Part shown: in pieces, positions 50,900 through 54,268 of the stretch
Numbering within the stretch: the stretch's first letter is position 1
Layout of the letters: each line of letters begins with the position of its first letter
From: a virus
IMG/VR virus record: IMGVR_UViG_3300044730_001415
Location: 1-56,479 of that record
Reading direction: 5' to 3' (one strand)
Length of the DNA: 56,479 nt
Translations under genes and position numbers: made by a program
Notes under the pieces: generated by a model
What the model saw: the letters and a program-made list of their open reading frames with translations, nothing else
The model's database searches: none
Told to the model about the DNA's origin: nothing

Positions 50900-51397
50900 A
50901 TGAACAGACAAGTGTTTGTAATCCCACACGATCAATTCGAAGAAGTTGATCACCCCGAAGAAGTCACAGAGCAATCGCTTCTTTCAGTTGTTCGATGCCT
51001 CGTTGCAGAAAGTCCTGAAAAAAAGCGAATTAGCTACCCGGCCTTCTACGCAATTCCGCTGGACATCGATCAGAAACCGATCGGCGAAACGCATAGCATC
51101 TATCCCGGCGACGTGGATGACCGCTATAAAACATTCATGGAAGTGCTCGACAACGCCTGCTACATCAGTGGCTTGTTCAAAAGAATGTACGGGTTCGGCG
51201 AGGATAACGACCCTGTGATCGACAGCTTTGTCTACGTCGTTTCCACGCAGTACGGTTTTGATATTCACGACATGCGAGCTCTGAGTTTGGCGCTAACGTG
51301 TATGAATGCGATTCCGGATAACGTCCACATCTCGGCGTTTGTTGTATCGACGGACATTGATTTCTACATCATCCCGTCATTTACGTCGTTGACGTAG
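50900..51397 (+). CDS. hypothetical protein
   Basis: A 165-residue acidic protein after AAGGAGAATA. Mixed alpha/beta pattern (VFVIPHDQFEEVDHPEE, VIDSFVYVVSTQYGFDIHDMRALSLAL). No recognised family. Last protein gene before the RNA-rich region. Confidence 0.65.
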   Translation: MNRQVFVIPHDQFEEVDHPEEVTEQSLLSVVRCLVAESPEKKRISYPAFYAIPLDIDQKPIGETHSIYPGDVDDRYKTFMEVLDNACYISGLFKRMYGFGEDNDPVIDSFVYVVSTQYGFDIHDMRALSLALTCMNAIPDNVHISAFVVSTDIDFYIIPSFTSLT

Positions 51398-51406
51398 TAA
51401 TGGTTC

Positions 51407-51490
51407 GGAAGCTAGCATGGTGCCAGATGTGACAAACCACTTGAGTTGTCAAAGAACAACATCTGATGGGTTCGATTCCCTAAGCTTCCA
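51407..51490 (+). ncRNA. tRNA-like structure, not a canonical tRNA
   Basis: A 7-bp acceptor-like stem (GGAAGCT with AGCTTCC, then A) and a T-arm-like GGGTTCGATTCCC are clear. The middle is not a normal tRNA: CAGATGT pairs with ACATCTG and encloses GACAA/TTGTC, giving an extended arm, and no standard D-stem is found. A 7-nt anticodon loop is possible only with a bulge and without U33. It could be a decayed tRNA, a tRNA mimic or part of the large RNA downstream. Confidence 0.55.
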
Positions 51491-51623
51491 CTGAAATCTA
51501 GTTGGTCAAGTGTCGGTAAAGGTCATATTCCGCTTACGAACTACGTAGCGCACGACGTAGGAGTGATGGCACTATATAGGGTATGACTACCAACACATTT
51601 TCAAAACTAATCAAAGGAGAAGC

Positions 51624-51836
51624 ATGAAGCAAATTGTCCAAGACACGCTGGTGTACATCGTTGAGTTTGAGCAGCTTCCAAAACTCCCGATCGCCGCCAA
51701 TGATGAAAGTGAAGTTCCGTACGCAATGGCTCTTCAAAACGCCATTGAAGTTGGCATCATAACCAAGGGTGGAAAGTACGGAATTCACATAAACCCAAAC
51801 TCGATGAGTTACATGGTTTATGCAATCGTCGACTGA
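51624..51836 (+). CDS. 70-residue hypothetical protein
   Basis: ATG after AAAGGAG. Sequence begins MKQIVQDTLVYIVEFEQLPK and ends YMVYAIVD. No family recognised. Its last codons lie within the first copy of the 44-nt repeat of the downstream RNA, which is odd for an ordinary gene/RNA border. Confidence 0.6.
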   Translation: MKQIVQDTLVYIVEFEQLPKLPIAANDESEVPYAMALQNAIEVGIITKGGKYGIHINPNSMSYMVYAIVD

Positions 51837-51870
51837 GCGACGTTAAATAGGCCTTTAGGCTCAGAGCGGT
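51827..51870 (+). repeat. 44-nt direct repeat, copy 1
   Basis: Begins CGTCGACTGAGCGACG (a CGTCG/CGACG hairpin) and also allows CTGAGC/GCTCAG pairing. Differs from copy 2 at one base. Confidence 0.9.
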
Positions 51871-52049
51871 ATCCCAGGAAGCTGTTCCGTATGACAGCGG
51901 GTTTTTAAGACGTAAAATCTCAACATAGGCAGGACTCTTTGCGTACACGTCGCGAAATCAGCATGAGAGAAAGTAACCGAGAAACTGACTTAACTACGTA
52001 AATTTAGAGTGCGCACTCTTTAGACTCGTAGCTGGGATACATAGGTAAC

Positions 52050-52093
52050 CGTCGACTGAGCGACGTTAAACAGGCCTTTAGGCTCAGAGCGGT
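52050..52093 (+). repeat. 44-nt direct repeat, copy 2
   Basis: One mismatch to copy 1 (C for T after GTTAAA). Heads the second module of the large RNA. Confidence 0.9.
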
Positions 52094-52555
52094 GTGGGTT
52101 GTGTTCGTAGCACATAAAGCAGATAAGAGGACCGACAGGCGTTAGCAAACGCTTATGGTTTCCGGCATATCATCCTTGGTTTGATATGTACGAGGGATAC
52201 TACGAGTTACCCCTGCTTCCCACACATAGGCATTCCGTATTCGTGTTGCAATGACGGTTGCAACAAATATGGTAAGATATTCTAGGTGTCCCTGGTATAG
52301 CGCCTAGAATCAAAGCCTTTATTATACCAGTAGGTGTCCAATACGCCTAAACCAAGCCGATCGCGACGGCAATTGGAACCGCGATACTCAGGCGGTATAG
52401 CTTACGGCGTTTCCCGTAAGACACCACTTTGGTGAAATGTAGAGCGGCGTCGACGGTACGCGGCAGCAGAAAACCGGAAGGGAGCCCCAGTCCCCTTATA
52501 CCGAAGCCTTTATGGCAACTGGCGGATCTGTTGAAAAACAGACAGAGTATTGAGC

Positions 52556-52597
52556 GCGCTGACAGATGATTTACCTCCTTTAATCGTCTGTCGGCGC
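52556..52597 (+). ncRNA. long hairpin displaying an anti-Shine-Dalgarno loop
   Basis: A 16-bp stem (52556-52571 with 52582-52597, two or three G-T pairs) carries a 10-nt loop TACCTCCTTT. ACCTCCTTT (52573-52581) equals the 3' end of bacterial 16S rRNA that pairs with ribosome binding sites. It is the last structure before tRNA-Lys. Confidence 0.7.
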
Positions 52598-52619
52598 TGC
52601 TCTACTTTGTGTATTTTTC

Positions 52620-52692
52620 GCCTCTTTAGCTCAGTCGGTAGAGCAGTGGACTTTTAATCCATTGGTCGTGGGTTCGAACCCCACAGGAGGCA
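52620..52692 (+). tRNA. tRNA-Lys (UUU)
   Basis: GCCTCTT pairs with AGGAGGC; D-arm AGCTCAGTCGGTAGAGCA; anticodon arm TGGACTTTTAATCCA with anticodon TTT; T-arm GTGGGTTCGAACCCCAC. No encoded CCA. Confidence 0.95.
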
Positions 52693-52723
52693 CTCACCAA
52701 CCACAACAGAAAGGAACGAACGC

Positions 52724-52906
52724 ATGGTTCGTTTTTACGCCCCGGCAAATCTTTGGATTTCCTCCAGAAATCGCGACGACCAGGGAATGCCATCCGGAAA
52801 TTTGGATGGGCATATCTGGGCGGACGTCTGTCAGTGCGTCGAATGTAAAGACGCATACGTTTCGTCCTCTGGAGTAAACATCCAAAATGTTCGAGACTTG
52901 AAATAG
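52724..52906 (+). CDS. 60-residue hypothetical protein
   Basis: ATG after GAAAGGAACG. VRFYAPANLWISS, then IWADVCQCVECKDAYVSSSG with three cysteines (C-x-C-x2-C) that may bind metal. The competing frame starting at 52662 overlaps the tRNA and is less likely. Followed by a GAGCA hairpin. Confidence 0.6.
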   Translation: MVRFYAPANLWISSRNRDDQGMPSGNLDGHIWADVCQCVECKDAYVSSSGVNIQNVRDLK

Positions 52907-52919
52907 TCTCGCAAACCTG

Positions 52920-52940
52920 AGCATGTTTTAAAACTGCTCA
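52920..52940 (+). repeat. GAGCA hairpin element, copy 1
   Basis: GAGCA and TGCTC enclose GTTTTAAAAC, forming a hairpin of about nine pairs. Preceded by ACCT in all three copies. No T tract here, so it may be an RNA processing site. Confidence 0.75.
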
Positions 52941-52967
52941 CTCACCAACCACAACCAAGGAGGAGTA

Positions 52968-53165
52968 ATGAAAGCCATCAACATCAACCGGACAACTCAG
53001 CGTTATATTGCTGAGATGTACAACGAAGGGGTTGTGCCTCAGATAGAAGTGGAACCAACGTACTATATCGTTGTTGATGACGGTCCAAATCTGATCGTCG
53101 ACAGACACGAGTACGTTCGCGTCTGGAAAGACAAAGTCGACGTGGACATCATCGCGGTTGTCTGA
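52968..53165 (+). CDS. 65-residue hypothetical protein
   Basis: ATG after AAGGAGGAGTA, a strong site. KAININRTTQRYIAEMYNEG followed by VVDDGPNLIVDRHEYVRVWK; looks beta-rich. No family recognised. A GAGCA hairpin follows the stop. Confidence 0.65.
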   Translation: MKAININRTTQRYIAEMYNEGVVPQIEVEPTYYIVVDDGPNLIVDRHEYVRVWKDKVDVDIIAVV

Positions 53166-53176
53166 GGTTTTGGAAC

Positions 53177-53197
53177 CTGAGCATGTTTTAAAACTGC
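53177..53197 (+). terminator. GAGCA hairpin element, copy 2, with T tract
   Basis: Same 21-nt hairpin followed by TCTTTTTCTTG, so this copy can act as an intrinsic terminator. Confidence 0.7.
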
Positions 53198-53253
53198 TCT
53201 CTTTTTCTTGTTGCACTTAATACCTAATCAACCCAAACAGGAGGAAACACCCA

Positions 53254-53547
53254 ATGGCCATTCCCGAGAACTTCGTGTTCATGAAGAACCCGCCAACAAA
53301 TAAAAGAGGTACCAAGAGCAAGTACGAATCCATTGCGGACGCCTGCCGACGGCATCCCAACATGTGGACTGTCTTCAACACTGACGTCAGCTACGGAATG
53401 ACCACTGCCTTCAAAAAGCAGTTCCCCGGGTTCGAGTTCACGTCAAGAGCAAACCCGCCTGACGGCAACCGCACTACGGTGACCATCTACGGTCGATTTG
53501 TCGAAGAAGTCGACCTAGAACTGGAAGCGCTGCTGGACGAGGAATAA
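53254..53547 (+). CDS. hypothetical protein
   Basis: A 97-residue protein after CAGGAGGAAAC. It begins AIPENFVFMKNPPTNKRGTKSKYESIADACRRHP and has a C-terminal acidic end (LELEALLDEE). No family recognised. Followed by GAGCA hairpin copy 3. Confidence 0.65.
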   Translation: MAIPENFVFMKNPPTNKRGTKSKYESIADACRRHPNMWTVFNTDVSYGMTTAFKKQFPGFEFTSRANPPDGNRTTVTIYGRFVEEVDLELEALLDEE

Positions 53548-53560
53548 ATCTCGAAAACCT

Positions 53561-53581
53561 GAGCATGTTTTAAAACTGCTC
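53561..53581 (+). repeat. GAGCA hairpin element, copy 3
   Basis: Same 21-nt hairpin, ending five bases before tRNA-Ile. No T tract, so a processing role for the tRNA 5' end is plausible. Confidence 0.75.
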
Positions 53582-53671: not shown

Positions 53672-53734
53672 ATCGTGGGTGCTACGTCGACGAGACCGTA
53701 CAGTCTGGTAAAAAACAGTCAGGCCACCCACACA
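53672..53734 (+). ncRNA. 63-nt repeated structured element, copy A
   Basis: GTGGGTG at the start pairs with CACCCAC at the end; inside are CGTCGACG and AGAC/GTCT. It lies between tRNA-Ile and the gene at 53753 and is 62/63 identical to copy B at 54206. It could be a leader, a stable RNA or a processing unit. Confidence 0.7.
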
Positions 53735-54205: not shown

Positions 54206-54268
54206 ATCGTGGGTGCTACGTCGACGAGACCGTACAGTCTGGTAAAAAACAGTCAGACCACCCACACA
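54206..54268 (+). ncRNA. 63-nt repeated structured element, copy B
   Basis: 62/63 identical to copy A, with the single change (G to A) at position 51 of the element. Directly followed by the stem-loop at 54267 that ends at tRNA-Thr. Confidence 0.7.

Follow-up and report, generated by a model that had tools for sequence, protein, structure and literature searches.

What does a phage keep in 0.78 kb of apparently gene-free DNA just before a tRNA gene? This stretch (51827-52600) lies in the window, i.e. the whole 56,479-nt DNA analysed here (IMG/VR virus record IMGVR_UViG_3300044730_001415), and the upstream ORF, the ribozymes, the structured RNA, the tRNA-Lys gene and the free-standing insert-type domains described below are on its plus strand. 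The initial annotation, made from the sequence alone, regarded the stretch as a candidate giant RNA fitting the GOLLD or ROOL kind, with two tandem modules headed by a common repeat and then a hairpin-rich 3′ part. GOLLD and ROOL are large structured phage RNAs often found near tRNA islands, and the size, the phage origin and the tRNA neighbourhood of the stretch agree with such an assignment (PMC12286853).

Identity of the tandem repeats

The repeats at 51827-51870 and 52050-52093 indeed differ by a single mismatch in 44 positions. When the window was scanned by cmscan against all 4227 Rfam families, two matches to the pistol ribozyme (RF02679) fell exactly on them, four tRNAs were recovered, and nothing besides these six exceeded the gathering score. 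Repeat 2 scored 44.7 bits and repeat 1 scored 41.4 bits with a cut-off of 34.5, and the E-values for the whole window were 6e-5 and 3e-4. The Rfam scans matched neither GOLLD nor ROOL, whether the gathering score or a permissive E≤5 was applied, so the proposed fit to these families is not borne out.

The P1 hairpin, the P1-loop pseudoknot, P2 and P3 are found in both copies, which are 223 nt apart. The core of pistol 1 (51827-51868) has P1 at 51827-51831/51838-51842, a pseudoknot of CTGAG (51833-51837) with CTCAG (51860-51864) and the core AGCG (51865-51868). Its P2 5′ strand (51851-51854) pairs with AGGT (52043-52046) across a P3 of 9 bp (51869-51877/52032-52040) that encloses a 154-nt insert (module 1, 51869-52040), and the predicted cleavage is at A52041^U52042. 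In pistol 2 (core 52050-52091), a P3 of 7 bp (52092-52098/52219-52225) encloses a 120-nt insert (module 2, 52092-52225), the predicted cleavage is at A52226^U52227, and AGGC (52228-52231) pairs with 52074-52077. The P3-P2 junction is 2 nt long in both and reads AU.

This anatomy explains the repeat, the long stems and the ATAGG tail that had been noticed earlier. The perfect closing stems, verified in both modules, are the pistol P3 stems, and the common ATAGG, verified as AT plus AGG, is the cleavage dinucleotide (A^U) followed by the P2 3′ strand. Those strands, AGGT and AGGC, pair with GCCT, and P2 of pistol 1 closes with a terminal G-U pair. The 3′ ends of the Rfam pistol matches are misplaced in the window, apparently because a match does not bridge the 154- or 120-nt P3 loop. 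By every defining feature that can be tested in a sequence, the repeats are two tandem pistol self-cleaving ribozymes with predicted cleavage sites. The layout of the tandem modules is unusual as the initial annotation supposed, but their identity had been overlooked.

Non-coding status and surroundings

The stretch contains no credible ORF, except that its first 10 nt are also the last of an upstream 70-aa ORF (51624-51836), whose TGA stop (51834-51836) sits in the P1-loop pseudoknot strand of pistol 1. Inside the stretch no ORF exceeds 63 aa on either strand, and in the alignment of the window with a related phage contig, L005, length differences break any reading frame. We rejected a coding explanation on these two grounds. 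The upstream ORF is kept in L005, where it ends in GACTAA and other genes lie between it and the pistol. The second pistol of the window has no ORF ahead of it.

Upstream of this ORF, 51407-51489 forms a degenerate tRNA-like structure (GGAAGCT..AGCTTCC with GGGTTCGATTCCC) that was missed by ARAGORN and gave a sub-threshold tRNA-Sec match of 23.5 bits. By eye, tRNA-like 3′ parts are visible in L016, L151 and L220 as well. Another gene-free element, probably structured, occupies 51495-51600, and in L005 its counterpart is directly followed by about 200 additional bases that resemble it in character. Farther downstream, the hairpin CCTGAGCATGTTTTAAAACTGCTC follows short genes in three copies (52913-52936, 53173-53196 and 53555-53578), which are perhaps terminators or processing sites.

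A structured RNA of about 390 nt

After the second predicted cleavage site comes a structured RNA (52227-52612) with a folding z of -6.30, a value equalled by 0 of 100 shuffles, and the tRNA-Lys gene (TTT; 52620-52693; ARAGORN, Rfam) directly follows. The pseudoknot proposed for this part was found as CTGGTATA/TATACCAG (52292-52299 and 52323-52330), and the proposed GAAA tetraloop as CTGTT-GAAA-AACAG (52528-52541). A long 3′ hairpin spans 52556-52597. The 8-bp pseudoknot still pairs in L005 through four double compensatory changes. The hairpin ATTCTAGG/CCTAGAAT, which holds the pseudoknot 5′ strand in its loop, becomes ATCCTAG/CTAGGAT there with the pairing kept. The 3′ RNA is thus structured and covarying, on good but thin evidence, as the comparison has two distinct sequences and the structure rests on few changes.

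Hence a large structured phage RNA beside tRNA genes is present as supposed, but a single giant RNA is not: the stretch holds two pistol-plus-insert units and a separate RNA of about 390 nt. Only two IMG/VR contigs, L005 and L013, which are nearly identical to each other, share the 3′ RNA, and both have one pistol with insert 1 ahead of it. Neither contig contains insert 2 or the second pistol. Among 50,697 phage records, no direct homologue of either insert or of the 3′ RNA was found.

The window phage is related to the Gordonia cluster DJ phages, with a primase/polymerase about 62% identical. The polymerase search supplied 48 records, to which L003 and L005 were added; 12 of these 50 contain a pistol at E≤0.01, and 11 of the 12 score above the cut-off. 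In L003, which is more distantly related, a pistol with the ordinary short P3 precedes tRNA-Met, Lys and Ile. The window is not alone in having tandem pistols: one phage contig, L122, has at least three pistol-pattern matches in a span of about 710 nt, with 235 nt between two of them.

Structured RNAs headed by pistols in other phages

A recurrent architecture follows many of the long-P3 pistols elsewhere: a hairpin CTGTGAAGG..CACAG (alternatively GGAGAAGG..CTCC), a variable hairpin, AAAAAACCG, a long-range stem and GAC. Its loci include L145, L184, L208, L220, L246, L258, L269, L276 and others. A search with the RNA pattern alone, requiring no pistol, returned 25 IMG/VR contigs. A pistol lies directly upstream in 24 of them (19 by script, 5 by eye with a looser core), and the 25th contig ends before that region. 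The long-range stem covaries: it occurs in 20 distinct versions, all paired, and swapped partners average 54% pairing, although choosing the best partner before GAC guarantees the own pairing in part. In the scanned loci of this family, Rfam matched only pistols and tRNAs.

The window RNA is analogous to this family in layout. Homology gains no support from a search of 51000-53500 with the model R1, which is sequence-only without base pairs and whose MAFFT alignment shifted three members; it gave no match, so we do not count the window RNA as a member. A second recurrent post-pistol motif, TATGCAC-hairpin-AAAGCCCCTG, was seen in L117, L138, L147 (twice), L201, L236, L303 and L304, which include cultured Curtobacterium phages.

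P3 as a variable slot

The P3 loop, normally tiny, is 154 nt in insert 1 and 120 nt in insert 2. Their folding z values are -1.71, which is modest, and -3.09, respectively, and neither has a homologue outside near-identical phages. For comparison, 169 phage pistols were assembled from pattern-collected IMG/VR cores and loci from other searches, with P1 and the pseudoknot required; this pattern-based set, in which the two pistols of the window are included, does not amount to a census. P3 was found in 134 of the 169. Loops of 30-170 nt occur in about 29 of the 169, whereas shuffled downstream sequence gave 0.6-0.8. P3 varies freely yet stays paired, with 27 distinct long-loop stems, for which the caller chose the best pairing. 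Among genome contigs, one pistol pattern had six matches.

The cultured sister phages JoyLin and Pippin15 differ in the whole P3 but hardly at all in the pistol core and the downstream RNA, so by sequence comparison they represent a natural P3 swap. A three-way junction recurs in many P3 inserts; it consists of a closing stem, C, a stem UA..UA, C(A/U) and GUCUG..GU-CAGRC. A scan of the examined phage loci recovered 26 distinct copies of this domain, whereas 3.67 Mb of shuffled sequence contained no copy, and the domain has no Rfam counterpart. Some copies are inside pistol P3 and others are free-standing; in L294 and L296 the domain is just upstream of a short-P3 pistol.

The window's own two inserts are of other kinds. 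Its two copies of the three-way-junction domain are free-standing (53675-53731 and 54209-54265) and make up a 71-nt repeat. Both were recovered by the domain scan, and the first and the insert in P3 of L295 are nearly identical. In the open-licence literature we found no report of large-P3 pistols.

The AU at the window junctions counts against predicted cleavage there, since GU is commoner: among 130 phage pistols, 108 have GU, 21 have AU and one has CU. However, AU is found in 13 of 29 long-P3 and 8 of 103 short-P3 pistols and is therefore a regular junction variant. Bimolecular pistols without the P3 loop still cleave, and the junction is strict in length but variable in its GU identity (PMC4604425), both of which support tolerance of changes in P3 and the junction.

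Upstream genes often run into the ribozyme. In 71 of the 169 phage pistols, an upstream frame of 50 codons or more has its stop within the P1 segment, compared with 6.4% of the same-strand TGAs nearby and 12.5% of random TGAs; as the controls count individual TGAs, the figures can be compared only approximately. From this placement, a terminating ribosome could delay the folding and cutting of the pistol.

A model of processing and its rivals

We think it probable that co-transcriptional pistol cutting severs the structured RNA and tRNA from the mRNA upstream and gives each side a defined structured end. This explanation builds on the pistol identity, the P3 pairing, the structured covarying RNA and the conserved layout, all observed here. 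Each pistol would cut its own strand just 3′ of P3 during transcription, at A52041^U52042 and A52226^U52227. The upstream mRNA would then end at A52041 in a knotted ribozyme plus insert 1 with a 2′,3′-cyclic phosphate, an internal RNA of about 185 nt (U52042-A52226) would be freed, and the downstream RNA would begin at U52227 with a 5′-OH and contain the 390-nt RNA and tRNA-Lys. Normal tRNA processing would later part these two. The pistols would thereby be protein-free processing sites that set RNA ends, and P3 a tolerant slot that accepts exchangeable RNA domains. Cleavage in the cell, protection of the ends, coupling to ribosomes and roles for the inserts and the 3′ RNA are what we infer from this arrangement.

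The stop codons in P1, far above expectation in the 169 pistols, could also mean that pistols mainly serve the upstream gene. The mRNA would be cut after its translation, and the insert, which remains on the 5′ product, would stabilise the 3′ end, with the downstream RNA either incidental or serving the tRNA operon as a leader. We find this unlikely, because the downstream RNA itself is strongly structured and covarying and the second pistol has no ORF ahead. Alternatively, the inserts could be sensors of a metabolite, a protein or a tRNA that gate cleavage, with the tandem arrangement accepting two inputs. They are structured, and in other phages the three-way-junction domain is conserved in sequence and fold and has an identity of its own, occurring also free-standing. 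Yet no known aptamer was matched, and the same downstream RNA goes with very different inserts and with exchanges of the whole P3, which is unexpected for a dedicated sensor, so dedicated sensing at this locus is rather unlikely. Its extension to a widespread class of gated ribozymes, in which exchangeable sensor or binding domains in P3 control cutting and release of downstream phage RNA and the window is a two-input tandem, is similarly doubtful.

Pistols decayed into inactive relics, their P3 filled by random DNA, would suit the A^U in place of G^U and the modest folding of insert 1 (z -1.7 against shuffles). We hold this to be quite improbable, because the core is kept in both copies and L005, the P3 stems are perfect and A^U is the regular variant described above. 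Least credible, to the point of being nearly negligible, is a GOLLD or ROOL RNA: no match appeared at E≤5, the pistols fully account for the repeats, and the structured remainder is only about 390 nt.

Because related phages repeat this layout, the natural job of pistol ribozymes becomes testable. Time and again in these phages, a pistol stands at the head of a large structured RNA whose conserved fold is absent from Rfam. Exchangeable RNA domains dock in the P3 loop, and in many cases the unit extends over the stop codon of the preceding gene. Long-P3 or P3-swapped pistols are present in the cultured Microbacterium phage Count and Curtobacterium phages JoyLin and Pippin15, so that direct tests of processing, stability and regulation are feasible. 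Gating of the ribozyme by its insert is the most interesting question raised.

Comparison with known systems

The window copies share with the typical pistol P1, the pseudoknot, P2, P3, the conserved core, the 2-nt junction and the phage association (PMC4604425). They differ from it in P3 loops of 154 and 120 nt in place of a few nt, in the AU junction and in having two copies, after which come a structured RNA and a tRNA. As judged from sequence, they are a pistol variant with unusual P3, in tandem, heading an unclassified structured RNA.

The pseudoknot hammerhead has a secondary structure and connectivity nearly identical to those of the pistol (PMC11300833), but the window core matches the pistol; the hammerhead core loop CUGAUGA is absent and the equivalent loop reads UUAG. 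The likeness to GOLLD and ROOL is limited to that of a structured phage RNA near tRNAs, whereas the window RNA matches neither covariance model, is shorter and has self-cleaving ribozymes ahead. A further mark of GOLLD and ROOL is assembly into a homo-oligomeric RNA nanocage. Theta (HDV-like) ribozymes adjoin phage tRNAs and are proposed to process RNA ends (PMC10879173). The window ribozymes belong to a different class, as no HDV-like family of Rfam was matched, and the second predicted cut, about 390 nt upstream of the tRNA, would free another structured RNA.
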